A program made the translations under genes and the position numbers. Under the pieces are notes generated by a model. That model searched no databases. It was not told the DNA's origin and saw only the letters and a list, made by a program, of their open reading frames with translations. 64,000 nt of DNA, from contig NZ_CP051680.1 of NCBI RefSeq assembly GCF_012849095.1, positions 7,560,001 to 7,624,000 of the forward strand, written 5' to 3'. The DNA is from Cohnella herbarum. GTDB taxonomy: Bacteria > Bacillota > Bacilli > Paenibacillales > Paenibacillaceae. Shown piece after piece: positions 9,086-64,000 of this stretch. Each line of letters begins with the position of its first letter. The stretch's first letter is position 1.

Positions 9086-9268
9086 CGCCAACCGCCAACC
9101 GCCAACCGCCAACCGCCAACCGCCAACCGCCAACCGCCAACCGCCAACCGCCAACCGCCAACCGCCAACCGCCAACCGCCAACCGCCAACCGCCAACCGC
9201 CAACCGCCAACCGCCAACCGCCAACCGCCAACCGCCAACCGCCAACCGCCAACCGCCAACCGCCAACC
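9086..9268. repeat. heptanucleotide tandem array, GCCAACC x about 26
   Basis: Perfect repeats of a 7-base unit for about 183 bases. Because 7 is not a multiple of 3, all frames are read in turn and long artefactual open frames (for example AVGGWRL repeats) appear on both strands. There is no ribosome site, so it is not treated as coding. Confidence 0.95.
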
Positions 9269-48415: not shown

Positions 48416-48516
48416 CCTTGCAGGTGCGCTGCCGGGTTCCAATCCAATTATGCCATAAGCGTAGTTTTGTGCCATTCTCCGGCTGACAAATTGCTTGCAC
48501 TCTTATTTTAGAGCGC

Positions 48517-48879
48517 CTAGGCGGAGCCGAACTTGCTTTGCAAATCCGAGTCGAACACGAAGATCGACATTCCGAAGTCTTTGTCCACGTCGATATCGAG
48601 ATACAGATCGAGAAATTTCGCGCCTAACAGCGCTTCCATTTCAACGGGCGGGTGTTTACGGTAAATTTCTTTTACCCACAAAGTACGTGCATCGCGAACC
48701 ATGCTTTTCCCGTCTTGCGCGGAAACCATGAATTTCTCGACTGAAGACAGGTTGCCTTCCATCTCGCAGATTGCCCAGTTTTTGCAGAACGTCGTGACGA
48801 TCCGGCTAGGCCCTTTGCCCATGTGCCGTTTCCGGTAGGCTTTGACAAGATTGCTGAATTCGGCTTCGTATCGGTTCAT
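48517..48879 (-). CDS. DUF2294 domain protein
   Basis: 120 residues. Recognisable DUF2294 blocks: FSNLVKAYRKRHMGKGPSRI, GNLSSVEKFMVSAQDGKSMV, RDARTLWVKEIYR and FLDLYLDIDVDKDFGMSIFV. Small soluble protein without known function. It is the first gene on the minus strand before the FdhF/YdeP-type oxidoreductase, an association I recall from other Bacilli. GAGGGACAGCG precedes the ATG. Confidence 0.85.
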   Translation of the reverse strand: MNRYEAEFSNLVKAYRKRHMGKGPSRIVTTFCKNWAICEMEGNLSSVEKFMVSAQDGKSMVRDARTLWVKEIYRKHPPVEMEALLGAKFLDLYLDIDVDKDFGMSIFVFDSDLQSKFGSA

Positions 48880-49117
48880 CGCTGTCCCTCGTTAAACCTC
48901 AGGGCCGGTGGCAGGAACGCTGCTCCGTGGCAAGAGGCGTTGATAAGATCATCTTAACAATAGAACGTATATATCGGCAATCCTTTGTTCTAAAAAACAA
49001 GGCTTGCTTTCCGAATACGGGCTGCTTTATCCTTGCTATACTGAATGGTTCTTCACCCGAATGCTAATGGAAGCGCATTCATTGGTGTGCGAGCTGCATC
49101 TAATGAAACGGTTGAAG
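48880..49117. other. intergenic region before the 51-bp array
   Basis: No gene seen. Holds the upstream control region of the DUF2294 operon. From 49118 the sequence matches the 51-bp repeat continued at 50573. Confidence 0.5.
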
Positions 49118-49163
49118 GACGAGCGAAATAGCGGTTCTGAGCACCGTTGATCGGCCGAAAATC
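49118..49163. repeat. left-hand copy of 51-bp tandem array A
   Basis: GAGCGAAATAGCGGTTCTGAGCACC and following bases equal units of the array at 50573-51003. It is cut off by the IS element at 49164 exactly after the CGAAAATC target site. Confidence 0.9.
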
Positions 49164-50572
49164 GATGATGTAAAGTAGTCTGTGTACCAACATTTGGAGC
49201 CTTAACAGGCAACAAAAAAGTAGGGTATCCTCGGGATTACGACATCACCAAGAAGGAGCCCTACTCGATGACTACTATATCCGAAAATGCGTACGACAAT
49301 CTACTTGAAAATGCTGTAAAAAAGCTGTTGCAGGAGAAGCTAGAACTGCTCATGCGTGAAGAAATTAAGAACTACATGCTTAACGAGCAACAGGATCAGC
49401 GAAACAGTCGTAATGGTCACTACAAGCGTACGTTCCAAACCCGTTACGGAACCATAAACGAACTCCAAGTTCCTCGCGACCGTAAAGGCACTTTTCAAAC
49501 GCGTTTGTTCCAACCCTACCAACGTAGGGAAGGCTGGTTGGAAGAGGCCATCATTCATATGTACAAAGGCGGAATGAGCACACGCGAAGTTGCCAAGTTC
49601 ATCGAGAGCATGTTCGGTACTCAGTACTCTCCGACCACCATCAGTAACATTACACAGACGGTTATGGAAGACATCGAACAGTGGCAGAAGCGCCCGTTAG
49701 AGAAACGCTACTCCGTTATCTATTTGGACGGGCTCTATGTTAAGCTCAAACGTAATACAGTCAGTAGCGAGGCTGTTTACTTGGTCATGGGTATCGACGA
49801 GAAAGGGATACGTCAAATTCTAGGATTTTACGTCGGTGGCCAAGAGAGTTCTAACGTTTGGAAAGAGGTCTTAATTGACTTAAAGAACCGCGGAGCAACC
49901 GAAGTGCTAGTTGGCGTTTTTGACGGGCTACCTGGACTTGAGGAAGCTTTTCGAGCAGTGTATCCTCAGGCCGATGTGCAGCATTGTATCGTCCATAAAG
50001 TGAGAAGTACCTTTCCAAAAATTCGAGTCAACGATAAAACCGAGTTTCTCGAAGATTTGAAGGGTGTATACACGGCATTTGATGGCGATGTAGCTTTGGC
50101 GGTCTTCGATGGGTTCAAAGCCAAATGGAGCAAGCAATATCCGAAGGAAGTGAAGTCGTGGGAGGAACAACTCCCGACATTACTGACCTTCTACAAGTTC
50201 CCAGCACTCACACGACCTGCGATTTACACTTCGAACCCCATTGAACGGACGAACAAAGAGTTACGCAAGCGCCTGAAGCCAATGAATAGTCTAACTAACA
50301 TTGAAGCAGCAGAGAAAATCATCTACCTCCAATCCCTAGACTACAATGAGAAATGGTGCGGAAGAGCAATTCGAGGCTTTGTAGACCCGGACACCAAAGC
50401 AGCATTTGAGAAGATGTACACTGAGAAATATTCAAGACAAAAGACTTAAAGCTGTAGCTCCCGCGCCTTCGCTTGAGCTACGCGCCTCAAGTCACACGAC
50501 CTTAAACAAATTGATTTTTTCTATCCATCGTCCCGATGGAAAAACCTACTACACAGACTACTTGACGCTACC
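49164..50572 (+). mobile_element. IS256-family insertion sequence, complete (1409 bp)
   Basis: Ends share the inverted repeat AAGTAGTCTGTGTA, left at 49173-49186 and inverted near the right end. The flanks are a perfect 8-bp direct repeat CGAAAATC (49156-49163 and 50573-50580), as expected of IS256 elements. Removing the element plus one target copy (1417 bases) restores an exact 51-base period in the host array (49139 to 50607 is 1468 = 51 + 1417). This confirms the borders. It carries one transposase gene and no passenger. Confidence 0.93.
49268..50449 (+). CDS. IS256-family transposase (MULE-like DDE)
   Basis: 393 residues, full length for the family, no frameshift. N-terminal helical region with RNSRNGHYKRTFQTRYGTIN, then the catalytic domain: Asp in VIYLDGLYVKLK, Asp in VGVFDGLPGLEEAF, the conserved CIVHKVRSTF, and Glu in NPIERTNKELRKRLKPMN. 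AAGGAGC lies before the ATG. Intact and probably active, or only recently inserted, because the target duplication is still perfect. Confidence 0.96.
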   Translation: MTTISENAYDNLLENAVKKLLQEKLELLMREEIKNYMLNEQQDQRNSRNGHYKRTFQTRYGTINELQVPRDRKGTFQTRLFQPYQRREGWLEEAIIHMYKGGMSTREVAKFIESMFGTQYSPTTISNITQTVMEDIEQWQKRPLEKRYSVIYLDGLYVKLKRNTVSSEAVYLVMGIDEKGIRQILGFYVGGQESSNVWKEVLIDLKNRGATEVLVGVFDGLPGLEEAFRAVYPQADVQHCIVHKVRSTFPKIRVNDKTEFLEDLKGVYTAFDGDVALAVFDGFKAKWSKQYPKEVKSWEEQLPTLLTFYKFPALTRPAIYTSNPIERTNKELRKRLKPMNSLTNIEAAEKIIYLQSLDYNEKWCGRAIRGFVDPDTKAAFEKMYTEKYSRQKT

Positions 50573-51003
50573 CGAAAATCGGGTGGCGGAACGAAATAGC
50601 GGGTCTGAGCACCGTTGATCGGCCGAAAATCGGGTGGCGGAGCGAAATAGCGGTTCTGAGCACCGTTGATTGACCGGAAATCGGGTGGTGGAGCGAAATA
50701 GCGGGTCTGAGCACCGTTGATCAGCCGAAAATCGGGTGGCGGAGCGAAATAACGGGTCTGAGCACCGTTGATTGACCGGAAATCGGGTGGCGGAGCAAAA
50801 TAGCGGGTCTGAGCACCGTTGATTGACCGGAAATCGGGTGGTGGAGCGAAATAGCGTGTCTGAGCACCGTTGATCGGCCGGAAATCGGGTGGCGGAGCGA
50901 AATAGCGTGTCTGAGCACCGTTGATTGACCGGAAATCGGGTGGCGGAGCGAAATAGCGGTTCTGAGCACCGTTGATCGGCCGAAAATCGGGTGGCGGAGC
51001 GAA
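50573..51003. repeat. 51-bp tandem array A (8 copies here, 9 with the left copy)
   Basis: Unit: CGAAAATCGGGTGGCGGAGC, then GAAATAGCGGGTCTGAGCAC, then CGTTGATCGGC (51 bases). GAGCACCG recurs at 50607, 50658, 50709, 50760, 50811, 50862, 50913 and 50964. Small stem CCGA-AAA-TCGG per unit. Variants alternate (TTGATCGGCC/TTGATTGACC; GCGG/GTGG). Open frames of 17-residue repeats on the minus strand are by-products of the period being a multiple of three; there is no ribosome site. Confidence 0.95.
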
Positions 51004-51150
51004 AGTGTGCTACAAGCCGTTGGTTAGATTTCGAGAAAAAGCGCGATGCAAGCCGCTGAGTGCGGACTAATTGGTTGGATAGAGTGCCATATAGCGGCAA
51101 AAGTGAGAGAATATCCTGCTACATGCTGCATGAGAAAGAGGAGGAAAACC

Positions 51151-52974
51151 GTGTTCGGTCATTGGAACCGCATGTCCCGCTCGTTCTTCGGGCGATTGCA
51201 GTGGAAGCTTTTCGTCTTTTTCCTGATTCTGACCGTCATTCCGGCGATCTTGATCGGATATGTTCTATACAACAACGCTTATAAAGCCATTGAAGAGAAA
51301 ACCGGACTTTATTCGGAGCAGATCATGGTTCAGTCGGCTGGGCGGCTAGACGCTTTGCTTACGGGAATCGAGGATATTAGCCTCCAAATGGTGTCCGCGG
51401 TCGATATTCAGCAGCTCATCAAGGAAATATCCGAGAATGACGACGTCGCTACGGAAGCTAAGTCGGCCGCCAAACTGAAGATGAAGCTAGGTCAAATCCT
51501 AAGCTCGAAGCGCGAGATCGTGGGAGCGCAGGTTCTGATGGCGGAAAAGGATTTGGCGATAACGTCGGGAGAAACGATGGTGTCCGCCGATTACAAGTTG
51601 TCGAATGAATATACGCAGGCGATGAGCAGACCCGAACCGGTATATTGGAGGGGAACGATTCGCAATCAAAGTCCCTCGATGCTGTACGAGTATTTAACGA
51701 CGCTCACGCGCAAAATCTACGATCCTTCCAGCGGCATGGTGATGGGAACTCTCGTGCTGGGAACGAAAGAGTTCGCGCTAGCGGATACGTTCTCCTACAT
51801 CGATCTAGGTCCTAACGGGTTCGTTTTTATTATGGACAAGGAAGGCAAGGTCGTCTCCCATCTGAGCAAGAAGAAGCTGACGAAACCGGCGGAATATTCG
51901 TTCGTCCCGCAGATCGTCCATTCCGGCGAAGGCGACAACCGTATATTCTCCTCGGATTTGGACGGGCAGAAATTCATGATCACGTACGCCAAGTCGACTG
52001 CGACCGGATGGTATGTCGTCAGCGCAATCCCGTATTCGTATCTGATGGAAAGGATCGTCTCCGTAGGGAAGTTCGCTATCCAACTGGACGTTGTCCTGTT
52101 CTTATTGGCGATTCTGATCTCCTTGTTAATCTCCATCAGCATCTCGAGACCGGTGCAAAGACTCGTCGCGGCGATGGGCAAGGTCGAAGGCGGAGATCTG
52201 AAAGTATTCGTCAATCTGAAGAGCAACAATGAGATCGGAGTGCTCGGCAATAGCTTCAATCGGATGCTCAAACGGATCAACCAGTTGATCGATAGAGTCT
52301 ACGAGGCGGAGATTTTGCAGAAAGACGCCGAAATCAAGGCGCTGCAATCGCAGATCAATCCCCACTTTCTGTACAATACGTTATCCGTTATCGACAGCAT
52401 CGCGACGGTGAAGCAGGAGAAAGAGATTAGCGCCATCACTCAAATGCTAGCGGATATATTCCGATACAGCACGAACGGCAACGACGTGGCCACGATCGAG
52501 GAAGAAGTCGGTCAATTGCAGCGCTACTTGCATATTCAGAAGACCAGGTACGGAGAAGATTTGCGTTGGCAATTTATCATCGACCCGAACGTCCGCGAAT
52601 GCAAGATCGTGAAGCTATTGCTTCAACCCATCGTGGAAAACTCCGTCATACACGGCATCCGCAAAGCCGGTACGATCAAAGTCATCATTCTGCCAAGCGG
52701 GGACAATCTATCGATCGCGGTGGAAGATAACGGTTCCGGGATGACGGAAGAGGAGCTGACGGCGTTAATCGAAAGGTTGGAAACATCGTCAAACCGTCTT
52801 CGCAGCAAAACCGACGGGGGCTCGCACATCGGGCTCGCGAACGTTTGTCACCGAATTAAGAGCTTCTACGGAGAAGCGTTCGGGTTAACGATCGTAAGCT
52901 CGGAGGGATTAGGGACGAAGGTGACGATCACGATTCCTATCGTGCGAGAGGCAGAGCAAAACGATGAACGATGA
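51151..52974 (+). CDS. YesM-type sensor histidine kinase
   Basis: 607 residues from a GTG at 51151, which sits six bases after AAGAGGAGG; the longer reading extends toward the repeat array and is rejected. TM1 about 17-38 (FVFFLILTVIPAILIGYVLY), extracellular dCache-type sensor, TM2 near 310-330 (IQLDVVLFLLAILISLLISI), HAMP, then HFLYNTLSVIDSIATV with the phospho-acceptor His (near 406) and an HATPase (LLQPIVENSVIHGIRKAG, IGLANVCHR). Its cognate response regulator at 53397 is separated by a terminator and a convergent small gene. Likely senses a sugar or the binding protein encoded at 55204. Confidence 0.95.
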   Translation: MFGHWNRMSRSFFGRLQWKLFVFFLILTVIPAILIGYVLYNNAYKAIEEKTGLYSEQIMVQSAGRLDALLTGIEDISLQMVSAVDIQQLIKEISENDDVATEAKSAAKLKMKLGQILSSKREIVGAQVLMAEKDLAITSGETMVSADYKLSNEYTQAMSRPEPVYWRGTIRNQSPSMLYEYLTTLTRKIYDPSSGMVMGTLVLGTKEFALADTFSYIDLGPNGFVFIMDKEGKVVSHLSKKKLTKPAEYSFVPQIVHSGEGDNRIFSSDLDGQKFMITYAKSTATGWYVVSAIPYSYLMERIVSVGKFAIQLDVVLFLLAILISLLISISISRPVQRLVAAMGKVEGGDLKVFVNLKSNNEIGVLGNSFNRMLKRINQLIDRVYEAEILQKDAEIKALQSQINPHFLYNTLSVIDSIATVKQEKEISAITQMLADIFRYSTNGNDVATIEEEVGQLQRYLHIQKTRYGEDLRWQFIIDPNVRECKIVKLLLQPIVENSVIHGIRKAGTIKVIILPSGDNLSIAVEDNGSGMTEEELTALIERLETSSNRLRSKTDGGSHIGLANVCHRIKSFYGEAFGLTIVSSEGLGTKVTITIPIVREAEQNDER

Positions 52975-53004
52975 TTTGTCGTAAAGATCGCATTTTGCGC
53001 AATA

Positions 53005-53031
53005 AAAAAGCTCTCATCTAAGAGAGCTTTG
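53005..53031. terminator. intrinsic terminator after the sensor kinase gene
   Basis: AAAGCTCTC / GAGAGCTTT stem flanked by A/T; can serve the kinase and, in reverse, the zinc-ribbon gene. Confidence 0.75.
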
Positions 53032-53065
53032 ACGGGACGATCCTAACTCTTAGGGGAGAAGGGGA

Positions 53066-53266
53066 CTAACCTTCAGAATCAGGTTTCGACATAAACCATG
53101 AGATATGAGTACACCTTTCACAGATCAGGATGGCTGCATCTTTATTCGCCCAATCAAGTCCAAACAATGACATCCCGGTAGTGTTTAACTTTTTGTAATC
53201 AAGCTTAAAAGTATCATTCCGGCAGCAGGGGCAGGAAATTGGTGCTCCATTAGCACTGTATCTCAT
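53066..53266 (-). CDS. small zinc-ribbon protein (66 aa)
   Basis: Start ATG at 53266 with GAGGAG nine bases upstream; three earlier codons in frame have no site. Two Cys pairs, CPCC (near 12) and CERC (near 49), form a likely zinc ribbon (ISCPCCRNDTFKLDYKKL ... ILICERCTHISWFMSK). No DNA-binding or catalytic motif otherwise. It lies antisense between the kinase and response regulator genes, separating what is usually one operon. Function unknown. Confidence 0.8.
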   Translation of the reverse strand: MRYSANGAPISCPCCRNDTFKLDYKKLNTTGMSLFGLDWANKDAAILICERCTHISWFMSKPDSEG

Positions 53267-53396
53267 GGGTAACAACTCCTCATATCTAGTGGCGGTGGCT
53301 ACTCGGAAGAAGATATGCTATTAAGTTTATCACAAGTCATTGCACAGTTCGATAATATTGCCTAACATCCGTTAAAGAGAGAGGGGTTTTCTTACT

Positions 53397-55025
53397 ATGC
53401 TATTAAACGTGATGATCGTGGACGATGAAGCGCCCATACGCAGCGGGATTAAAATGAAGGTCGATTGGGAAGAGCTCGGCATGCAGGTCGCCGCGGAAGC
53501 GAGCGACGGAGCCGAGGCGCTGGAGTTGATCGAGAGGGGGGATATCGATCTGGTCATTACGGATATTACGATGCCCGTCATGGACGGGTTGAACCTGATC
53601 CGGAAAGCGACGGAAATCAACGACAACGTTAAATTCATTATCATAAGCGGCTACAGCGAGTTCGAATACGCGCGTACGGCGATGAAATACGGGATATCGG
53701 AATATTTGCTCAAGCCTTTGAAAGAAGCGGAGATGAGGGCGTCCCTCCTTGCCGTCAAAGAAGAAATACTAGCTTCCGAGCCTGCATGGCTGAAGGAACG
53801 GGAGAAAAGGGAGAAGCTTAAGATCAAGGAGGAATCCTTGCTTCATTGGCTATCGGACAAGAGCTCCAAGCACGTTCCGGCCGACGTCGTGCAAGAGTGG
53901 AAGCAGGAGCTTGAAGCGAATCGTTTCCTCATCGGAGTGATCAAGACGGAAGCATTGGATTCATCCGCGGACGATCCCGAGAGAATCCGCAATATCGTCC
54001 TCTATCACGAGATAGAAACGGCATGCAGCGAGCACTTGGATCATCTGGGAGACGGCTACGTCATCAAGAACATTCGGCCCGATCATGAATTCATCCTGCT
54101 GCTCCATCCCGATCCCGCGAACGGCAAAGACAAAATCGTACGAGCGTTAACCCCATTCGCGGAAAAGCTGGAGAAGAGGCTCGGCATCCGGGTTACGATC
54201 GGAATCGGCGAGGCTTACGATCAGGCGCATGCGATCAAAGCTTCTTACCGCGAAGCGGTATACGCCGTGAAGGAAAGGCTATTGCTCGGAACGGGCAAAG
54301 CGATCGACTATTCGCGAATCCCGGTTAAGAGCGATAAACCGAATTTCAACGCGGAGACGAAACTTCTGACGCGATTTCTGAAGGAAAAGAAGTGGGATAA
54401 GGCCAAAGAGCACATCGATTATTTGTTTACGAACGTCGTCCGCAAGAAACAGATTACCAACCACACCCATGTTCACGAGCTGTTTTTCGAGGTTTATTTT
54501 ATGATCAAACAGTTCTCCCAAGAAGAAGCCGCCGTTCATTCCGATTACGCGGTTGCGGGTTCGGTTGCGGATATCACGGATATCGTAACGGGATTCAGTC
54601 ATATGGATCAGATGGTGGATTGGCTGTATCTGTACATGGAGAGCGCTTGCCAACATCTGATCGGGGGACAAGACGCTACGGGCAAAGAAATCGTATATCG
54701 CGTCCAAGCTTATATTAAAGAGTTCTGCAGCTCGGATTTAACGTTGAACATGGTGTCCGAGAAGTATCATATCAATCCGATTTATTTCAGCAGAATTTTC
54801 AAAACCTACACCGGAGAAAGCTTCAACAACTATATTACGAGAATCAGGATGGAGGAAGCGAAACATTTGCTGGAGACGACTTCTTTGAGACAGCAGGAAA
54901 TATCGGAGATCGTCGGTTACGAGGATCCGAAATATTTCAGCAAGGTGTTCAAGAAATTTTTCGGCATCAGCCCGAGCCAATATACCGAAAATCGGTCACC
55001 TGAAATGACTTCGGGTAAGCCGTAA
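53397..55025 (+). CDS. YesN-type response regulator with AraC output domain
   Basis: 542 residues, full YesN length. Receiver: LLNVMIVDDEAPIRSGIKMK, phospho-acceptor Asp in LVITDITMPVMDG (near 55), Lys in YLLKPLKE. A long middle region (about 135-430) holds a GGDEF-like degenerate linker (GIGEAYDQAHAIKASYREAV). The AraC C-terminus reads YHINPIYFSRIFKTYTGESF and ISEIVGYEDPKYFSKVFKKF. It should control the ABC operon that begins 178 bases downstream. AGAGAGAGG lies before the ATG. Confidence 0.95.
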   Translation: MLLNVMIVDDEAPIRSGIKMKVDWEELGMQVAAEASDGAEALELIERGDIDLVITDITMPVMDGLNLIRKATEINDNVKFIIISGYSEFEYARTAMKYGISEYLLKPLKEAEMRASLLAVKEEILASEPAWLKEREKREKLKIKEESLLHWLSDKSSKHVPADVVQEWKQELEANRFLIGVIKTEALDSSADDPERIRNIVLYHEIETACSEHLDHLGDGYVIKNIRPDHEFILLLHPDPANGKDKIVRALTPFAEKLEKRLGIRVTIGIGEAYDQAHAIKASYREAVYAVKERLLLGTGKAIDYSRIPVKSDKPNFNAETKLLTRFLKEKKWDKAKEHIDYLFTNVVRKKQITNHTHVHELFFEVYFMIKQFSQEEAAVHSDYAVAGSVADITDIVTGFSHMDQMVDWLYLYMESACQHLIGGQDATGKEIVYRVQAYIKEFCSSDLTLNMVSEKYHINPIYFSRIFKTYTGESFNNYITRIRMEEAKHLLETTSLRQQEISEIVGYEDPKYFSKVFKKFFGISPSQYTENRSPEMTSGKP

Positions 55026-55203
55026 GGAAAATGAAAGGTATAATTTTTGCACTCGTTTAGTTGATTCTGTGAGTCTGCGCAAGTAACCATCCATGATAAC
55101 CTAAGTCTCAGACAGCGGCCCATACCTCCAAGAGCAATGACACAGTTCGGGATGCTGCGGACAATGGAATCATGGATTTTCTATGACAAAGGGAGGCTTT
55201 TCA

Positions 55204-56295
55204 ATGAAAAGAAGTTTATCCATCGTACTGTGCATCATGCTTTCATTGGTTCTGATTTTGGCGGCCTGCGGTAAAAACAACGAAAGCAAGCCGGCCTCGG
55301 GCAGCAGCGCAAGCGACTCTCAAGAGAAATCCAAAGAGATTAAACCGATCGTCGTCGGGGTGAGCAACGGATATATCGGCAACGGTTGGAGAACGCAAAT
55401 GACGGAAGCGATCGAGACGCTCGCGGAAGAATACAAACAAAAGGGTTGGATCGAGAAGATTACTATCCAGCACGCCGGAGTCGACGTGAACAACCAAATC
55501 GCGCAAATCCGCAACATGATCAACGCCAAAGTCGATTTGTTGCTTATCGATGCCAATTCTGAAACCGCTCTCAATCCGGTAATCGAAGAAGCGGTCAAGA
55601 AAGGGATTACCGTCATTACGTTCGACCAACCGGTAACGACCAAGAAATCGCTCAACGTCGTCATCGACCAGCAGCAGTTCGGAAGAAACCTTGCCGAGTG
55701 GTTCGTGAACGAATTGGGCGGCAAAGGCGATATCGTCATCGTAAGCGGCTTGCCTGGCCATCCGGCGAACGTTAACCGCTTGATCGGGATGAAAGAAGTG
55801 CTGGCGAAACATCCGGACATCAAAGTGCTGACCGAAGTTAACGGAAACTGGGACGAAGCGAACGCGCAGCAAGTGACTTCCAACCTGATCGCTTCCTATC
55901 CGAAAATCGACGGCGTGCTTACCCAAGACGGTATGGCGCTTGGCGTAGTGAACGCGTTCCAAGCGGCGAATAAGAAACTTCCCGTCATTACCGGCGAGAA
56001 CAACGTCGCTTTCCTTAAGAAGTGGAAGGAATTGAAGGACAGCGAAGGATTCAACACCTATGGACTGAATAACCCTCCGGGAATCGGCGCGACCGCGCTC
56101 GGAATCGGCGTCAGAATGCTTCAAGGCAAGGAAAACAAACTGCCTATGACGGATAACACTTACATCTATCCGATCGGCACGCACATCAAGAACGACAACC
56201 TCGAAGCCGAGCTGGGCAAAGTATCCGACAAGCCGGATACGTACACGCTTGACGAGAAGCTGTCCGAAGAGCAGTTGAATTCTTTTTTTGAATAA
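55204..56295 (+). CDS. lipoprotein periplasmic-binding-protein (type I, RbsB-like)
   Basis: 363 residues from the ATG at 55204 (AAAGGGAGGC upstream). Lipobox LILAAC near residue 22 with a Ser/Lys-rich tether. Type I fold: IVVGVSNGYIGNGWRTQMTE, IRNMINAKVDLLLIDANSET, ITVITFDQPV and DGVLTQDGMALGVVNAFQAA are the usual RbsB/XylF-like positions. Captures a monosaccharide or polyol. It is followed by a hairpin and then the ATPase gene. Confidence 0.95.
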   Translation: MKRSLSIVLCIMLSLVLILAACGKNNESKPASGSSASDSQEKSKEIKPIVVGVSNGYIGNGWRTQMTEAIETLAEEYKQKGWIEKITIQHAGVDVNNQIAQIRNMINAKVDLLLIDANSETALNPVIEEAVKKGITVITFDQPVTTKKSLNVVIDQQQFGRNLAEWFVNELGGKGDIVIVSGLPGHPANVNRLIGMKEVLAKHPDIKVLTEVNGNWDEANAQQVTSNLIASYPKIDGVLTQDGMALGVVNAFQAANKKLPVITGENNVAFLKKWKELKDSEGFNTYGLNNPPGIGATALGIGVRMLQGKENKLPMTDNTYIYPIGTHIKNDNLEAELGKVSDKPDTYTLDEKLSEEQLNSFFE

Positions 56296-56321
56296 TGTCA
56301 TACCGATAGGATCGAAACAAC

Positions 56322-56353
56322 GGAAGAGGGAGTACTCGGTATTCCCTCTTTCG
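56322..56353 (+). other. hairpin between binding-protein and ATPase genes
   Basis: GAAGAGGGA and TCCCTCTTTC form a 9-base stem with no T-run. This is the third hairpin in the window directly after a binding-protein gene. Confidence 0.6.
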
Positions 56354-56370
56354 ACAAGAGGAGACTGGCC

Positions 56371-57882
56371 ATGCAATTACTCGAAGCGAAATCGTTGCGC
56401 AAATCCTACGGCGGGGTCATGGCACTTCGCGACGGAAATCTGATCTGCAAGCAAGGCAAAGTATGCGGACTCCTCGGGGCTAACGGTTCCGGGAAGTCGA
56501 CTTTCTCTAAAATGATCTCGGGAGTCGTAAAGCCGGATGGCGGAGAAATTTGGTTCAACGGCGAGCGACTCAGCGTTGCGAACCCGCAAGAAGCCAAGAA
56601 ACACGGTATCATTATGGTTCATCAGCATCTGAGTCTCGTTCCCGAGCTGGCGATCTGGGAAAATATGACGCTAGGCTCGGAGCCGGAAGGCCGAATGGGC
56701 TTTATGAACGATCATCAGTCGCAGCGGATCGCGCAGACGTACCTGTCGAAATTCGCGCCCGAGCTGTCCATTCATGAGAAGGTGAAGGATCTTTCGCTCG
56801 CGCAAAAACAATTCGTGGAAATCGCCAAAGCCATTTCCCAGAAACCTAAGCTGCTCATCCTCGACGAGCCGACGGCTCCCTTGGAGCAATCCGAAGTAGA
56901 GAAGCTGTTCGCGGTCATTCGGGAATTAAAGGCTCTTCATACGTCGATCATCTTTATCTCCCATCGGTTGTGGGAAATCAAAAGCATTTGCGATTACGTC
57001 GTTGTTTTCCGGAACGGGGAAACCGTCGGAGCCATCGATTTCGAAACCGAGGCAAAGGACGAGAACCTTATCGTCTCGATGATATCGGGCAAGGAGCATG
57101 AGCATGCGAAGGACAACGCCCCGAGAAACGCCAAACAGACGGAAACGATGCTCGAAGTCCGGGAGCTCGCGCTCCGCAAATCCAAGGATCGGGTGAGCTT
57201 TGATATAAAGAAAGGCGAGATCGTCGGACTCGGAGGGCTACAAGGACAAGGGCAGGAGCAATTGCTGCTCGTACTGTCCGGATTAATTCAGCCTGAAGGC
57301 GGGCAGATCGCCTTGAACGGGAAGAAGCTGAAGCTGCGGCATCCTAAACACGCCGTGAGGGAAGGGATGGTTCTCGTTCCGGGAGACCGGCATAAGGAAG
57401 GGTTATTCCTGCAACACGACGTCCTGCTAAATCTGATTTATCCGCAATTCGCGACGAAGAAAACGAAGTTTTTCCTGAATATGAAGAAGTTGAAGGCCGA
57501 AGCGGACGAGGTCATTCGCCAAGTGAATATCGTTCCGAACGATCCGGGCAAAGTGGTGCAATTCTTAAGCGGAGGCAATCAACAGAAGGTTGTCGTAGGG
57601 AAGTGGCTGCCTCTATCTCCTAAAGTGCTGTTGCTCAGCGATCCGGCTAAGGGAGTCGACGTCGGCGCCAAGAAGGAACTGTACGATACCGTAAGGAAGC
57701 TGGCCGATCAAGGAACTTCCGTGCTGCTATACGCAAGCGATCATGAAGAGCTGATGAATATTTGCGATCGGGTATTTATCCTATTCGAAGACCAGATCGT
57801 GGAACAACTGTTGCCTTCCGATTACAGCGAACAACGTTTCGTGTCCGCATCCCTGCGATCCGCGAAGAGCGCAGTAAACTAG
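56371..57882 (+). CDS. sugar ABC transporter ATP-binding protein (RbsA/MglA-type, two ATPase domains)
   Basis: 503 residues with two nucleotide-binding domains. The first has Walker A GANGSGKSTFSKM (near 34), signature DLSLAQKQFVEIAKA, Walker B LLILDEPTAPL. The second is degenerate as usual in CUT2: GLGGLQGQGQEQLLLVLSG in place of Walker A, signature FLSGGNQQKVVVGKWL, Walker B-like VLLLSDPAKGVDVGAKKE. Walker B of the second domain reads LLSDP rather than LLLDEP. Energises the permeases encoded next. Confidence 0.95.
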   Translation: MQLLEAKSLRKSYGGVMALRDGNLICKQGKVCGLLGANGSGKSTFSKMISGVVKPDGGEIWFNGERLSVANPQEAKKHGIIMVHQHLSLVPELAIWENMTLGSEPEGRMGFMNDHQSQRIAQTYLSKFAPELSIHEKVKDLSLAQKQFVEIAKAISQKPKLLILDEPTAPLEQSEVEKLFAVIRELKALHTSIIFISHRLWEIKSICDYVVVFRNGETVGAIDFETEAKDENLIVSMISGKEHEHAKDNAPRNAKQTETMLEVRELALRKSKDRVSFDIKKGEIVGLGGLQGQGQEQLLLVLSGLIQPEGGQIALNGKKLKLRHPKHAVREGMVLVPGDRHKEGLFLQHDVLLNLIYPQFATKKTKFFLNMKKLKAEADEVIRQVNIVPNDPGKVVQFLSGGNQQKVVVGKWLPLSPKVLLLSDPAKGVDVGAKKELYDTVRKLADQGTSVLLYASDHEELMNICDRVFILFEDQIVEQLLPSDYSEQRFVSASLRSAKSAVN

Positions 57883-57909
57883 TTTATCTCAAATGTGGGG
57901 TGAGTCGAA

Positions 57910-58884
57910 TTGAATGGGCATAACCGCTTGCATAAGCTTCAACATCATAGCTTATTCCCGATCGTTATCATTTTTCTGATCGTCGTCGGGGTGAACGCCG
58001 CCTTGCAACCGGGGTTTTTCACCTATGACGTCTTCCAATCCAATCTGTCCAGCTTTACCCCGCTCGTGCTCGCAAGCATGGCCCAAGCGGTCGTCGTTCT
58101 GGTCGGCGGAATCGATCTGTCCATCGGGATGGCGATTACGTTGTCGACGGTCATCATGGCCGCGACGATGAACGACTCTCCCTCCAGCGTCTTTATCGGA
58201 CTCGGACTCGCTATCGTCGCTACGTTCGCGGTCGGAGCGCTTAACGGGATTACGGTCGGTTACTTAAAGCTGCCGCCGATTATATCCACTTTCGCCGTAT
58301 CCTCGGTGTGTTACGGAGCGGCGCTGCTGATCATGCCTCAGCCGGGCGGGTATATCCCTTCGTTTTTTTACGAGACTTATCAAACGAGCATTGCATCGAT
58401 TTTACCGATTTCGTTATTGATCATTATCGTTGGCCTTGCGATCTGGGGACTTATCTCGCGAAGAAAAATCTACCGTTATATTTACGCCGTCGGAGGCAGC
58501 GAATCTGCCGCTTACGCGAACGGAATCAATACGAAGAAGGTGAAGCTGTATGCCTTCTTGATTAGCTGCGTTTTCATCGTTCTGACCGCGTTGGTCGTCG
58601 TTTCGCAGACCGCGACCGGCGATGCTAATATCGGCCGGGCGTATACGCTGAATTCGATAGCCGCCGTCGTTATCGGAGGAATCAGCCTTCAAGGCGGGAA
58701 AGGCAATCTGATCGGAGCGGTTCTAGGGGCTTTGATACTCGGGTTTATATCCAACATTATTTTTTTCGCGAACCTTTCCTCCTTTTACCAAGATTTGATT
58801 AAAGGCTTGATTATCATATTCGCGCTGACGCTGTCTATTCTTCCGACGCTTCGGAAGAAGGCGCTTGCCCAATCGGGAGGTTGA
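57910..58884 (+). CDS. sugar ABC transporter permease (RbsC-type) 1
   Basis: 324 residues from a TTG start at 57910 preceded by GGGGTGAG. Eight or more hydrophobic segments; CUT2 motifs include VLVGGIDLSIGMAITLSTVI (near 59-78), AYANGINTKKVKLYAFLISC and NSIAAVVIGGISLQGGKGNL. It overlaps the second permease region (GGGAGG of that gene lies in its last codons). Two distinct RbsC-like permeases here suggest a heterodimeric channel. Confidence 0.94.
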   Translation: MNGHNRLHKLQHHSLFPIVIIFLIVVGVNAALQPGFFTYDVFQSNLSSFTPLVLASMAQAVVVLVGGIDLSIGMAITLSTVIMAATMNDSPSSVFIGLGLAIVATFAVGALNGITVGYLKLPPIISTFAVSSVCYGAALLIMPQPGGYIPSFFYETYQTSIASILPISLLIIIVGLAIWGLISRRKIYRYIYAVGGSESAAYANGINTKKVKLYAFLISCVFIVLTALVVVSQTATGDANIGRAYTLNSIAAVVIGGISLQGGKGNLIGAVLGALILGFISNIIFFANLSSFYQDLIKGLIIIFALTLSILPTLRKKALAQSGG

Positions 58885-58886
58885 CC

Positions 58887-59885
58887 ATGAGCACGAGCCA
58901 ATTACGAACGAACGAGGCGCGCACGGCGGGTTTGACGTTGAGGAAGGTCAAGAGCCTAGGCAATCATAAGGTTCTGATCGCATATCTGCTTGCCCTATTG
59001 ATTTTCGTGGCGGGACAGATCATCTCTCCCGGTTTCGGCGAATTTTCTAATATAATGAATGTACTGAACATATCCGCGCTGCTGGGGTTTATCGCATTGG
59101 CGCAGATGTTGGTCGTGATGTCCGGCGGAGAAGGGATAGATCTATCCGTCGGCGCGATGGCGTCGCTAGGCGCCGTCATGTCTTCGCAGATCATCGGCGG
59201 TTTGGACGGAAACCTTCCTTTGGCCGTTATCGTCGTGTTGCTGATTGGATTTCTGATCGGCTGCGTCAGCGGGCTGGGAATTTCCTATTTCAAAGTTCCT
59301 CCTCTGGTCATGACGCTGGCGATGGCAAGCGTAATCCAGGGAGGAGCGCTCGTCTATACGAACGGACAACCGAAGGGGATGGCTTCTCCTTTACTGAAGG
59401 AACTTGGAACGGGCAGGACCGCGGGGATTCCCCATTTGGTTCTGTTGTGGATCGTGATCGCGGTGATCGTCGCCGTCTTCCTTCTCCGCACGAAATGGGG
59501 CAAAGTGCTGTACGGATTGGGTACCAATCAACTGACGACCGAGCTGTCCGGAGTGAGAACGAAGGTCGTGCGTACCGTCGTGTACGGAGCAAGCGGGGCG
59601 ATATCGGCGATCGGCGGCATGTTGCTGCTTAGCTATACGGGTACTGCTTTTCTCGATATCGGCGCGACGTATATGTTGCCGACGGTCATCGCGGTCGTGA
59701 TCGGAGGAATTTCCTTGGCGGGCGGATTGGGAAGTTATAACGGAACCGTTGCCGGGGCGATTTTGTTAACATCGTTGAGCAGCATTCTGATCACGATGAA
59801 CATTACCGAAGGCGGTCGGCAGATCGTTTACGGAGTTATATTGTTGCTCCTTCTTATTGCTTATGGTAGGCAGAAGATGAATTGA
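58887..59885 (+). CDS. sugar ABC transporter permease (RbsC-type) 2
   Basis: 332 residues from the ATG at 58887, with GGGAGG six bases upstream; a TTG at 58881 is the alternative. Motifs parallel permease 1: VVMSGGEGIDLSVGAMASLG and PTVIAVVIGGISLAGGLGSY. An extra basic N-terminus precedes TM1. The pair with permease 1 forms the channel of the monosaccharide importer. Confidence 0.94.
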   Translation: MSTSQLRTNEARTAGLTLRKVKSLGNHKVLIAYLLALLIFVAGQIISPGFGEFSNIMNVLNISALLGFIALAQMLVVMSGGEGIDLSVGAMASLGAVMSSQIIGGLDGNLPLAVIVVLLIGFLIGCVSGLGISYFKVPPLVMTLAMASVIQGGALVYTNGQPKGMASPLLKELGTGRTAGIPHLVLLWIVIAVIVAVFLLRTKWGKVLYGLGTNQLTTELSGVRTKVVRTVVYGASGAISAIGGMLLLSYTGTAFLDIGATYMLPTVIAVVIGGISLAGGLGSYNGTVAGAILLTSLSSILITMNITEGGRQIVYGVILLLLLIAYGRQKMN

Positions 59886-59909
59886 CGGTTAGCTGGACTG
59901 CGAATTAAG

Positions 59910-59950
59910 AGAAGAAGATAAGAAGCTAAGAAGCTAAGAAGGCAAGAAGA
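59910..59950 (+). repeat. purine-rich simple repeat AAGAAGCT
   Basis: AAGAAG-AT, AAGAAGCT, AAGAAGCT, AAGAAGGC, AAGAAGAC form about five imperfect 8-base repeats in the leader of the mutarotase gene. Confidence 0.7.
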
Positions 59951-59975
59951 CAGGGAAGGGAAAGGTGTTGGGAAA

Positions 59976-60953
59976 ATGAGCCGATATGCAGCTAGTTGGG
60001 AGACGCAGGATGGGTTCGAGGTGATTTCGTTGACTGATGCGAGTAGCGATTCCGTTGCGGAGATTGTTCCCGGTGTCGGGAACAATCTGTATCGTTTCGA
60101 GAGCCGGGGACGGCAGGTACTTGTTCCGCCGGCAAGCATGTACGCGTTGAGGAACGAGAACAACGCGACTTTCATGTACGGTACGCCGATCCTGTTTCCG
60201 CCGAATCGGGTAATGGACGGGAGGATCGATTTTCGCGGCAGGGAATATCGGTTGCCGTTGAACGAGCCTCCGAATCGTCATCTTCATGGCGAGATATGCA
60301 GCAGGGCTTGGGAAGTTGTCGAAGCGGGCGCATCAGATGAGCAAGGCGCGTTCGTGACTAGCAGGTTTAGTTATGCTTCATATCCGGAACTGATGGCATA
60401 TTTCCCCCATCCGCTGACGTTTACGGTGACCGTTCGACTATGCGACGGGCGGTTGGAGATGAGCGGTACGATCGTGAACGAGGGAGAGGACGAAGCTCCG
60501 TTCGCTTTCGGGTTGCATCCTTATTTCTCTGTGCCGTACGGTAGCGGAGAAGAGATCGAACTGCAGGTTCCGGCGGTAGCGGAGTGGCCGGTGACGAACG
60601 AAGCTTTCGTTACGGATAGGCCATCGGTTACGGATCTCAGCCGGGCTCTGAACGAGGGCGTTTCCATTGCCGATTATCCCGTGAACGGATGCTCTTTGTT
60701 ATCGCTAGCCGGAGGGGATAGCACCTGCCGCATGGTGGTGAAAGACCGGAATTATACGATAGCCTATCGATTCGGACCGGAGTTTCCCTACGTCGTCCTG
60801 TTTCGGCCGGATTGGGCGGCGGCGTATTCGTTGGAACCGTATACGTATGTGACGGATGCTTTTAATCTTCCATACGAGCACGAACTGACGGGCGCTCGGG
60901 GCATAGGCGCAGGCGAGACTTTCCGTTTTAGCACGGGTATGTGGGTGGAGTAG
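59976..60953 (+). CDS. aldose 1-epimerase (galactose-mutarotase-like)
   Basis: 325 residues. Aldose 1-epimerase blocks: FMYGTPILFPPNRVMDGRID, NRHLHGEICSRAWEV (His near residue 104), FAFGLHPYFSVPYG (catalytic-type His near 173) and the late SLEPYTYVTDAFN (Glu). Interconverts sugar anomers, which fits the monosaccharide importer genes directly upstream. The ribosome site is weak (GGGAAAGG). No signal peptide. Confidence 0.9.
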   Translation: MSRYAASWETQDGFEVISLTDASSDSVAEIVPGVGNNLYRFESRGRQVLVPPASMYALRNENNATFMYGTPILFPPNRVMDGRIDFRGREYRLPLNEPPNRHLHGEICSRAWEVVEAGASDEQGAFVTSRFSYASYPELMAYFPHPLTFTVTVRLCDGRLEMSGTIVNEGEDEAPFAFGLHPYFSVPYGSGEEIELQVPAVAEWPVTNEAFVTDRPSVTDLSRALNEGVSIADYPVNGCSLLSLAGGDSTCRMVVKDRNYTIAYRFGPEFPYVVLFRPDWAAAYSLEPYTYVTDAFNLPYEHELTGARGIGAGETFRFSTGMWVE

Positions 60954-60963
60954 GAGAGGCTCG

Positions 60964-61402
60964 CCATTGTCGCGTTTTGCGACAATGAGCGTGAGCGAGA
61001 GAGAGAAGGGCCCACCATTGTCGCGTTTTGCGACAATGAGCGAGAGCGAGAGAGAGAAGGGCCCGCCATTGTCGCGTTTTGCGACAATGAGCGAGAGCGA
61101 GAGAGAGAAGGGCCTGTCATTGTCGCGTTTTGCGACAATGAGCATGAGCGAGAGTGTGAAAGGCCCGTCATTGTCGCATTTCGCGACAATGAGCGAGAGC
61201 GAGAGAGTGGAGGGCCCGCCATTGTCGCATTTTGCGACAATGAGCGTGAGCGAGAGAGAGAAGGGCCCGCCATTGTCGCGTTTTGCGACAATGAGCGTGA
61301 GCGAGAGAGAGAAGGGCCCGCCATTGTCGCGTTTTGCGACAATGAGCGAGAGCGAGAGCGAGAGAGTGAAGGGCCCGTCATTGTCGCGTTTTGCGACAAT
61401 GA
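60964..61402. repeat. 51-bp tandem hairpin array B (9 copies)
   Basis: Each unit carries the perfect stem-loop CATTGTCGC-GTTTT-GCGACAATG, then GAGCGAGAGCGAGAGAGAGA and AGGGCCCGC. Hairpins start at 60965, 61016, 61067, 61118, 61169, 61220, 61271, 61322 and 61379; all steps are 51 except the last (57, one extra AGCGAG). Stem changes are few (GTCGCATTT/TTTCGCGAC variants). Long repetitive open frames on both strands have no ribosome site and are not called as genes. Confidence 0.95.
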
Positions 61403-61420
61403 GCACTTTGACCAGAAATG

Positions 61421-61466
61421 AAAAGTGTTGATCTAGGATAAATCCTCCTGGACCAACACTTTTTCT
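61421..61466 (+). terminator. intrinsic terminator downstream of array B
   Basis: AAAAGTGTTG pairs with CCAACACTTTTT, inner AGGAT/ATCCT stem; closes the sugar operon transcript. Confidence 0.8.
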
Positions 61467-61502
61467 TTTGACCATAGGTTTCATCAAGCGTCGCCCTTGC
61501 GC

Positions 61503-62190
61503 CTATAGTCGGTTTTTCCGACTATAGGCGCGGGATCAGCGAGTTAGTGTGTCTCATAGTCGGTTTTTCCGACTATAGGCGCGGAGTCAGCGAGTTAGTG
61601 TGTCTCATAGTCGGTTTTTCCGACTATAAGCGCGGGATCAGCGAATTAGTGTGGCTCATAGTCGGTTTTTCCGACTATAGGCGCGGAGTCAGCGAGTTAG
61701 TGTGGCTCATAGTCGGTTTTTCCGACTATAGGGATCAGCGAGTTAGTGTGGCTCATAGTCGGTTTTTCCGACGATAGGCGCGGAGTCAGCGAGTTAGTGT
61801 GGCTCATAGTCGGTTTTTCCGACTATAGGCGCGGGATCAGCAAGATAGTGTGTCTCATAGTCGGTTTTTCCGACTATAGGCGCTGGATTGGCGAGTTAGT
61901 GTGGCTCATAGTCGGTTTTTCCGACTATAGGCGCGGAGTCAGCGAGTTAGTGTGTCTCATAGTCGGTTTTTCCGACTATAGGTGCGGGATCAGCGAGCAA
62001 GTGTGGCTCATAGTCGGATTTTCCGACTATAAGCGCAAGATTTGCGAGTTAGTGTGTCTCATAGTCGGATTTTCCGACTTTAAGCGCAAGATTTGCGAGT
62101 TAGTGTGGCTCATAGTCGGTTTTTTCGACTATAAGCGCTGGATTGGCGAGTTAGTGTGGCTCATAGTCGGTTTTTCCGACTATAAGCGAG
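61503..62190. repeat. 51-bp tandem hairpin array C (14 copies)
   Basis: Each unit carries ATAGTCGG-TTTTT-CCGACTAT, then AGGCGCGGAGTCAGCGAGTT and AGTGTGGCTC. Copies step by 51 bases (61555, 61606, 61657, 61708, 61754, 61805, 61856, 61907, 61958, 62009, 62060, 62111, 62162), except one of 46 at 61708-61754. The loop and stem are mostly kept; single stem changes at 61754, 62060 and 62111 are not compensated. Confidence 0.95.
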
Positions 62191-62356
62191 AGAGCGGGGG
62201 AGTTAGTATGGTTATCCATCAGCAACCGTCAAAAGTAAGCGCTTCAACAGGTATAAAAAACACTCCTAAGAAGTTGATTTTATGGGTCGGATTAGAGGTC
62301 GCGGAATTTTATGATGAATACATAACAACGGCTTGGCTGAAGAGGAGGAACAACGA

Positions 62357-63460
62357 TTGAGCGCAATTGACTTGAACTTGAACATCGAACCGGTAATGCC
62401 TAAGCGCAAAGATTACCGGATCGGCTGCATCGGTTCCGGATTCATCATGCGGGATTGCCACTTGGTCGCATACAAGGATGCGGGCTTTAATCCCGTTGCG
62501 ATTGCGTCGCGTACTTACGCGAACGCGAAGGCGGTTGCCGAACTGCGGGGAATCCCGAAGGTACACGAGAAGTGGGAACAGTTGGTCCAAGATCCCGAGA
62601 TCGAGATTCTCGACATCGCGGTTCCCCCGGATCGTCAACTCGAAGTCGTGAGGTTGGCCGTCAAGCAGCCGCATATCAAAGGCATTCTGTGTCAGAAGCC
62701 GCTGGCTATGAACTCGCAGGAAGCGCGGGAGATCGTCGAGCTCTGCGAAGCCGCGGGCATTAAAATCGGAGTCAACTCGAATATGCGCTACGATCAATCG
62801 ATCCGGGCGCTCAAAACGGTGCTCGATCGCGGTTATCTCGGAGAACCCGTGCTGGCGACGATCGAAATGCGGGCGATCCCGCATTGGCAGGATTTCCTTC
62901 ATCAATACGAGAGAATCGAAATTCTAAACATGGGTATCCACCATATCGACGCGTTCCGATACCTGTTCGGCGATCCGGAGAAAGTTACGGCGGTCGCGCG
63001 CAAGGATCCGAGAACGAAATTCAAGCACATCGACGGGATTTCCCAATATACGTTCCAATACGGCAACGAACTCATGGCTACGAGTCTGGATGACGTCTGG
63101 GCTTGGCCGGGAGAAGGCGCCGAGAAGGACATCTATATCAAATGGAGAGTCGTCGGACTGGACGGAATGGCCCAAGGGACGATCGGATGGCCTCATCCGG
63201 AAAGAACGCCGAGCACGCTCGAATTCACGACGAAGCAGTCTCCGAACCAATGGTTCCGGCCGAAGTGGGATACGGTGTGGTTTCCGGATGCTTTCCAAGG
63301 GACGATGGCGCAGTTGCTTCGCGCGGTGGAGACGGACAGCGAGCCGGAAATCGGCGGCAGGGATAACCTGAATACGATGGCCGCCGTAGACGCTTGTTAC
63401 AAATCCATTGCCGAAAGCCGGACGATATCCTTCAGCGAAGTTACGCAATCCAACTTATAG
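62357..63460 (+). CDS. Gfo/Idh/MocA-family oxidoreductase
   Basis: 367 residues. The start is a TTG at 62357 (SAIDLNLNIEP) preceded by GAGGAGG. Rossmann NAD(P) motif RIGCIGSGFIMRDCHLVAYK (near 23-42). The conserved EKP motif reads QKPLAMNSQEA, keeping the Lys, and NMGIHHIDAFRYLFG has the catalytic H-I-D type. Dehydrogenase of sugars or inositols, cytoplasmic, likely acting on the substrate imported by the ABC system at 55-60 kb. The 1.4-kb repeat region separates it from that operon. Confidence 0.92.
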   Translation: MSAIDLNLNIEPVMPKRKDYRIGCIGSGFIMRDCHLVAYKDAGFNPVAIASRTYANAKAVAELRGIPKVHEKWEQLVQDPEIEILDIAVPPDRQLEVVRLAVKQPHIKGILCQKPLAMNSQEAREIVELCEAAGIKIGVNSNMRYDQSIRALKTVLDRGYLGEPVLATIEMRAIPHWQDFLHQYERIEILNMGIHHIDAFRYLFGDPEKVTAVARKDPRTKFKHIDGISQYTFQYGNELMATSLDDVWAWPGEGAEKDIYIKWRVVGLDGMAQGTIGWPHPERTPSTLEFTTKQSPNQWFRPKWDTVWFPDAFQGTMAQLLRAVETDSEPEIGGRDNLNTMAAVDACYKSIAESRTISFSEVTQSNL

Positions 63461-63552
63461 TGCGAGTTCAAAAAGTTATGTTTTCAGCACCGAGAAGGTT
63501 GGAAGATCCGGCCTTTTATAGACTAAAACCATTTTAAGGGAGGAAATTGCTC

Positions 63553-64000
63553 ATGATCTCAGTAGGTATTTTTAACGGATATTATCCTTACTCGCTAGCG
63601 GAATCGATTTCCAGAATCAAAAAAGACGGATTTAACTGCGTTCAATTGGACCTTGCTTTCAAAGATATGGACGTTTCCCCGGATAACCTGACGCGCGACA
63701 AAGCGCACATGATCCGCGATGCGTTTCGTGACGCGAATTTACCTATCGTCTGTATTTCCGGTTACACGAATATCATTCATCCGGATGCTAAGAAACGCGA
63801 ACAGAACGTAAACGGGCTTAAAAACCTGCTAAAATACGCTCGCGATCTGGGGAGTCCTTATGTCATCAGCGAAACGGGTACTTACAACACGGATAGCGAC
63901 TGGGTATGGGATCCGAAAAACGGCACGGAGGAAGCTTACGAGGAAATCTGCAAGCAGCTCGAAGACCTTGCCAAATTCGCCTATGATCACGGCTCCGTGT
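63553..64000 (+). CDS. sugar phosphate isomerase/epimerase-like protein (TIM barrel), 3' end outside window
   Basis: Starts ATG at 63553 after AGGGAGG and remains open to the window end (149 codons visible). Text reads SVGIFNGYYPYSLAESISRI, FNCVQLDLAFKDMDVSPDNL, NLPIVCISGYTNIIHPDAKK and LGSPYVISETGTYNTDSDWV, the alternating strand-helix pattern of xylose-isomerase-like TIM barrels. Metal ligands are only partly visible. Adjacent to, and same strand as, the Gfo/Idh/MocA dehydrogenase, a frequent pairing in sugar and inositol breakdown. Confidence 0.85.
   Translation, partial: MISVGIFNGYYPYSLAESISRIKKDGFNCVQLDLAFKDMDVSPDNLTRDKAHMIRDAFRDANLPIVCISGYTNIIHPDAKKREQNVNGLKNLLKYARDLGSPYVISETGTYNTDSDWVWDPKNGTEEAYEEICKQLEDLAKFAYDHGSV

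Follow-up and report, generated by a model that had tools for sequence, protein, structure and literature searches.

We analysed a 64,000-nucleotide stretch of the Cohnella herbarum genome (G000:C1:7560001-7624000, hereafter the window; source genome, 8.52 Mb) that carries three tandem arrays, A, B, and C, each with a repeat unit of 51 bp (Table 1). Tandem Repeats Finder (TRF) recovered all three at this period, and calls of open reading frames (ORFs) placed all of them between genes, confirming an earlier note on this DNA in both respects; as 51 is a multiple of three, open frames run across the arrays, and coding repeats were rejected because the ORF calls place the arrays between genes. The arrays belong to a repeat class present in part of the genus Cohnella, in which units of little common sequence keep a length of 51 to 52 bp, mostly contain a 21-bp dyad, and are tied to transposons, a link absent from the earlier note.

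Array A had been described as a single array spanning 49118-51003. One unit and the main array do lie within these limits, with an insertion sequence (IS) of the IS256 family splitting them. The transposase ORF of this element (49268-50449) matched NF033543 (E=1.6e-114) and PF00872, and a 9-bp duplication, CCGAAAATC, was read from the sequence at the element. IS256 copies approximately 99% identical to it interrupt the A-like arrays at loci L029 and L031. The inverted repeats ascribed to the three arrays are real in B (ATTGTCGC-GTTTT-GCGACAAT) and C (ATAGTCGG-TTTTT-CCGACTAT), whereas the CCGA/TCGG pair quoted for A belongs to the spacer once the unit is placed in the family frame, the family dyad of A being degenerate. 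Folding of the doubled unit of array A was no better than that of shuffles (z +1.1 and +1.6).

In the dyad frame, A equals B and C at 9 and 13 of 51 positions, respectively, in agreement with the claim that the sequences differ; this claim is weaker for B versus C (25/51 positions equal). C-type dyads form the end units of the B-type arrays L297, L298, and L300 elsewhere in the source genome, as read from the sequence, and B and C are therefore probably one family. Array A clusters with 27 other arrays when consensus units are compared; the group of 28 stands within a set of 67 arrays in which many had been fetched for resemblance to A or B. Units also follow a common 21-bp dyad plan, and the note's description of the arrays as unrelated is not supported. 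A further family, with TAGACCGCT...AGCGG-type dyads, adjoins A-like or B-like arrays at L297 (68-286), at L036 (2982-3203), and in the window (51005-51080), giving composite arrays.

Table 1. Arrays and adjoining features of the window (positions in the window)
Feature	Position	Strand	Evidence and remarks
Detached single unit of array A	49118-49164	-	Cut off by the IS256 insertion; BLAST 95% identity to array A over 44 bases
IS256-family insertion sequence within array A	49165-50571, ends approximate	+	
Array A	50572-51004	-	TRF: 8.5 copies, period 51, 91% matches; degenerate 21-bp dyad
Aldose 1-epimerase-like gene	59976-60953	+	PF01263; stop 5 bp ahead of array B
Array B	60958-61404	+	TRF: 8.6 copies, period 51, 91% matches
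Terminator-like hairpin and T run between B and C	61421-61470	+	Read directly from the sequence, unscored
Array C	61505-62188	+	TRF: 13.5 copies, period 51, 89% matches
Gfo/Idh/MocA oxidoreductase gene downstream of array C	62333-63460	+	PF01408; relatives in Cohnella and Paenibacillus

Distribution of period-51 arrays in Cohnella

Array periods were surveyed in systematic 20-kb stretches of four array-bearing genomes (60 from the source genome, 17 from G001, 5 from Cohnella cholangitidis, G005, and 10 from G032; 1.84 Mb in total), counting periods of 20 to 160 with a TRF score of at least 100, rules that exclude shorter, longer, and weaker arrays, such as a 191-bp array in L022. Five arrays of the source genome (ORF of at least 187 aa outside the array) and one each in G001, G005, and G032 were classed as coding. 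Four arrays with ORFs were kept as non-coding, namely L047:16479 (188 aa outside the array on the minus strand, with plus-strand genes flanking), L025 (112 aa), L257 (127 aa), and the 27-bp array L258 (54 aa). Of the 25 non-coding arrays, 19 had a period of 51, one of 50, and one of 52, so that 21 fell within 50 to 52, the rest having periods of 27, 46, 58, and 114. G001, G005, and G032 carry B-like arrays, and the survey is accordingly biased to array-bearing genomes. In the 1.2-Mb sample of the source genome, 8 of 10 non-coding arrays had a period of 51 and the others 50 and 58. The scattered periods elsewhere in the genome that, according to the note, would refute its reading were therefore not seen in this sample, and the equal period of A, B, and C, as the note had supposed, is no coincidence: the fixed length is a genome-wide property.

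Outside these genomes, seven stretches of G010 held no clear non-coding array (a 41-bp array there, L229, was left undecided and stands outside the 25), and 19 Paenibacillus loci (398 kb) held one 32-bp and one 112-bp array, none near 51. Among 80 named loci, arrays of period 51 to 52 (score of at least 90) occurred in 3 of the 7 Cohnella loci and at no other locus. B-like arrays were present in 7 of 37 genomes of the genus and A-like matches, some single and weak, also in 7 of 37, while across 198 genomes of the order B-like matches were confined to two, both Cohnella, with few candidates scored per genome. Because A-like and B-like arrays occur in few genomes, the class does not extend throughout Cohnella.

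Most units combine a 21-bp dyad and a spacer

Consensus units of 67 arrays, grouped at 31 of 51 matches (the highest of 3000 shuffled comparisons gave 30), fell into A-like (28) and B-like (14) groups, small groups, and singletons. Single linkage at 29/51, the 99.9% null point per pair, united 50 of 77 arrays and was not relied upon. Ungapped alignment of 77 units revealed a common, odd-centred dyad of 21 bp, its ends mostly TAR...YTA or ATW...WAT (TWA-type), beside a spacer of approximately 30 bp that often holds a T run; these units were restricted to a consensus length of 50 to 53, and their lengths are thus no evidence on period spread. Sixteen mutually dissimilar cluster representatives contained 92 dyad pairs, against 55.8 +/- 4.7 in 25 shuffled sets (maximum 65), the frame having been picked with a pairing bonus that was also given to the shuffled sets, in which only the single-base composition is preserved. 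Total column information was 14.8 bits versus 12.3 +/- 0.3, above all 25 shuffles, and the best common frame without the bonus gave 15.1 versus 12.6 +/- 0.3 bits. Spacers alone showed a small excess (8.08 bits versus 7.08 +/- 0.48, maximum 7.98).

Within arrays, the stems are conserved. Across 524 units, the mean number of mutations per column was 24 in stems, 52 in loops, and 62 in spacers, stems varying 2.6-fold less than spacers. When doubled consensus units of 73 arrays were folded, z averaged about -1.4 for either strand, and 53% had z < -2 on one strand, a result that is supportive, not decisive.

Unit length is kept better than sequence

Dyad-to-dyad steps of up to 60 bp were exactly 51 in 423 of 474 cases and 52 in a further 40. 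In 70 period-51 arrays we counted 963 distinct substitutions and 40 distinct indels, approximately 24 substitutions per indel, with indels probably undercounted by the unit finder. Sixteen hand-picked representatives of the families average only 33% identity in the common frame. One account of these data is plain common descent, whereby copies of a single ancestral unit of 51 bp dispersed early and then accumulated substitutions, their equal length being inherited with nothing to hold it. Consistent with this, the dyad plan is common to units, column information exceeds that of the shuffles, B-C intermediates exist, and A-like matches in the source genome range from 67 to 95% identity. However, at the within-array ratio the near-saturated families should differ by several indels each, yet arrays keep 51 to 52; this is an estimate, not a fit, and we consider common descent by itself somewhat unlikely. 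Common descent gives a start, and the missing length drift suggests a constraint. Length is more stable than the indel rate inside arrays would predict, and a size-constrained process, as the note had proposed, may therefore be at work; among the note's suggestions a rapidly evolving repeat class fits best.

One such constraint would be a lattice: the dyads, recurring every 51 bp, would either bind a DNA-structuring protein or form cruciforms, in both cases with a required distance of about five helical turns, and selection would hold this spacing while the letters drift. A period kept at 33% identity although indels arise, and stems conserved within arrays, are both in line with this, as are elements L284 and L294, whose dyads lie approximately 51, 62, and 51 apart with unrelated, unrepeated spacers. 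L284 and L294 are probably related copies, however, and hence not independent. In-array length variants of 38, 46, 48, 49, 54, and 57 are not whole helical turns, and the non-tandem dyad spacings, few in number (21 pairs, partly from loci added for their dyads), include 38 and 65. Because the arms differ between families, no single sequence-reading protein fits. We regard the lattice as unlikely, and the helical phasing and protein-bound spacing of about five turns put forward in the note find no support in either the length variants or the non-tandem spacings. A broader version is that Cohnella holds a size-locked class, in which palindromic units of nearly free sequence stand at 51 to 52 bp steps through a structural DNA requirement (a hairpin or cruciform lattice plus an unknown factor), regardless of transposon family and letters; we offer this tentatively and think it improbable as well.

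Gene context of the arrays

Simple ORF calls were used to class the genes flanking 75 arrays. These genes are codirectional for 45 arrays, convergent for 23, and divergent for 7, and four of these last seven arrays adjoin IS genes splitting an array. The median distance from an array is 91 bp to a gene 3' end and 172 bp to a 5' end. The excess of convergent over divergent settings and the hairpin-capable units would suit an element acting at the RNA level, either a terminator or an mRNA-protecting hairpin array. In contrast, units show no preferred orientation relative to genes (same direction in 20 cases, opposite in 25), stem mismatches are G-T in 44 and A-C in 36 cases, folding is alike on both strands, and Rfam returned no match at E up to 1 in window positions 48500-64000. 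Known RNA families were rejected on the Rfam result and a strand-specific RNA hairpin on the mismatch counts and the absent strand preference, making an RNA-level role quite improbable. Intergenic palindromes closer to gene 3' ends also recall repetitive extragenic palindromes and bacterial interspersed mosaic elements (REP/BIME) mobilised by Y1 (RAYT) transposases. Y1_Tnp (PF01797) had no match in the source genome, while 5 of 14 control genomes responded; REP/RAYT mobilisation is refuted for this genome unless the transposase was lost, and we consider it extremely unlikely.

Some arrays lie within transposon-like elements

Comparison of array flanks led to terminal inverted repeats and placed two array families inside elements resembling miniature inverted-repeat transposable elements (MITEs); in members of both end families, a tandem array lies between the terminal inverted repeats. 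The first end type, CAGGGCAATCGCTTACGAAAT, had 19 matches in the source genome, compared with 1 and 0 for reversed-pattern controls, and no match in three relatives. These matches represent 15 distinct elements, eight with a period-51 array. L284 has a clear duplication of approximately 9 bp around GGTAAGCCA, with an ambiguous boundary, and L280 (the same as L043) a near duplication (8/9 bp). No parent IS of this end type was found in our search. Longer elements with a CAGGGCAATCGCTTACGAAA-type end and 21-bp dyads approximately 50 bp apart were seen at L287, L290, and L295; an autonomous parent of that end type was not found.

The second end type, GTTACTACTTAGGTCTC, had 15 matches each in the source genome and C. 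cholangitidis (reversed-pattern controls, 1 and 2 in the former, 0 and 1 in the latter). IS66 transposase genes, once a fragment, coincide with 8 of the 15 matches in the source genome and 3 of the 15 in C. cholangitidis, identifying GTTACTACTTAGGTCTC, on sequence grounds, as the end of IS66 transposons that these two genomes themselves carry. Of the remaining 12 matches in C. cholangitidis, nine flank five period-52 arrays, with perfect 8-bp target duplications at L271 and L273 and a 7/8 duplication at L268; L265 lacks one end. In the source genome, four of the seven non-autonomous loci hold a period-51 array (L306, L310, L313, and L314), and near target duplications were also found at L313, L307, and L314.

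Arrays differ between species and receive insertions

The gene cluster that surrounds A, B, and C has its closest counterparts in Cohnella mopanensis (G016) and C. cholangitidis. In C. mopanensis, the genes that neighbour the B-C locus are conserved and no array lies between them; other sequence takes the place of B and C, so that the difference is not a clean insertion. Array B is also absent beside the orthologues of the epimerase-like gene at L123 and L124. Conversely, an intergenic slot approximately 6 kb to the right of the B-C locus is free of arrays in the source genome, whereas C. mopanensis has a 51-bp unit there in 24.5 copies and C. cholangitidis a different one in 9.7 copies. An AraC-like gene, recognised by eye, lies upstream of a histidine kinase in two relatives (L123, ~320-1270; L124, 1-900) and is missing from the matching place in the source genome (window 48880-51150), the site of array A and its IS.

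Four of the seven non-autonomous GTTACTACTTAGGTCTC loci of the source genome are in or beside another 51-bp array (L307, L311, L312, and L314). Of the 10 IS66-type loci read there (these seven plus L305, L308, and L309), five are in arrays (L305, L307, L311, L312, and L314), and in all five the insertion abuts dyad positions 7 to 14-15, seen on both sides at L307 and L314 and on one side at L305, L311, and L312. The 8 to 9 bp duplicated at such insertions would correspond to the centre of the dyad. Four arrays (A, L009, L029, and L031) have an IS256 copy at their border, which in three of them falls at about the same place in the spacer, and A-like arrays at L009, L029, L030, L031, and L036, as well as in the window (49165-50571), are interrupted or bordered by IS256, IS3-like, and IS4-like elements. 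Judged from these junctions, arrays appear to serve as landing sites for IS elements.

A proposed mobile minisatellite class

On balance, we favour the view that A, B, and C are members of a mobile, palindrome-based minisatellite class in part of Cohnella that is carried and targeted by DDE transposons and homogenised locus by locus. A typical unit would be a 21-bp hairpin-capable palindrome plus approximately 30 bp of spacer. Enclosed as the core of a non-autonomous transposon (MITE) that a DDE transposase mobilises in trans, a unit or short array would reach a new intergenic site, with IS66 as the likely mover for one family, and A, B, and C may have arrived by the same route. On site, arrays would gain and lose units through slippage or unequal crossing-over, and each would therefore be homogenised while arrays diverge from one another. 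Between families, the palindrome would be kept more than its letters. The dyads would in turn be insertion targets of IS66-type elements, and arrays would therefore nest inside arrays.

Several observations weigh against this proposal. Neither end type lies within 400 bp of A, B, or C, where no match had fewer than six mismatches, and the B-like arrays L297-L304 show no ends by eye. Target duplications were absent or unclear by eye at L033, L037, and L039 for the first end type, and for the second none was present at L263 and that at L310 failed or was unclear; three of the eight non-autonomous loci of C. cholangitidis (L315-L317) hold no array, and four of the five IS66-type array insertions are in one array family. 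Many Cohnella genomes have neither A-like nor B-like arrays. Movement itself was not observed, there being one genome per species, and the arrays look mobile by comparison of sequences. Without the pairing bonus, the best frame of the 16 cluster representatives has only 37 pairs and is not the dyad frame, and the dyad alone beats the 95% shuffle point in only 33 of 80 arrays and the 99% point in 21, arrays of one family not being independent in this test. The dyad does not explain the period because L044:5934, L025, and L245 keep the period with little or no dyad. Stem pairs that changed within arrays were mostly broken (195 cells, compared with 5 that became another Watson-Crick pair and 2940 unchanged); because of this, and because stem columns are less mutated, the stems are kept by purification inside arrays, with compensation between families, not within them.

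Relation to known systems

Precedent for this kind of element comes from the BrickBuilt and 464/PgRS MITEs of Porphyromonas gingivalis, described as minisatellites within MITEs with tandem units of 23 and 41 nt and ends matching the IS5 family (PMC4596501). As that account has it, they resemble the Cohnella elements in carrying a minisatellite inside a MITE, in ends that match a full-length IS of the same genome, in around 10 to 20 copies, and, for BrickBuilt, in being always intergenic (PMC4596501). Unlike them, Cohnella arrays have periods of 51 to 52 over many sequences, most of their units contain a 21-bp dyad, and of their two end types one matches IS66; what is new is the constant period over many sequences together with two transposon end types. 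REP/BIME are likewise small palindromic repeats that are sometimes arrayed (PMC3733652), whereas the Cohnella arrays are long, homogenised, and of fixed period, with no Y1 transposase match in the source genome. Palindromic units at regular spacing also recall clustered regularly interspaced short palindromic repeats (CRISPR) arrays, yet the spacers of A, B, and C repeat with the whole unit (89 to 91% matches); cas genes were not sought. Mycobacterial interspersed repetitive unit-variable number tandem repeat (MIRU-VNTR) minisatellites are dispersed intergenic tandem units of roughly 50 to 100 bp, and the trait stressed for the Cohnella arrays is the many dissimilar sequences at one period. 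A literature search, mostly outside subscription journals, found no fixed 51-bp class and no Cohnella repeats.

Four genomes of one genus thus keep one unit length in most sampled non-coding arrays despite little common sequence, and transposons carry some of these arrays and insert into others. The arrays allow a test, in nature, of what determines how long the units of bacterial minisatellites are, and account for part of the species-specific intergenic DNA in these genomes.

Perfect heptamer arrays were also seen. CGCCAAC is repeated 26 times at 100% in the window (9086-9268), and GCAAACC at least 18.6 times at L038, where the array (11871-12000) reaches the limit of the sequence read.

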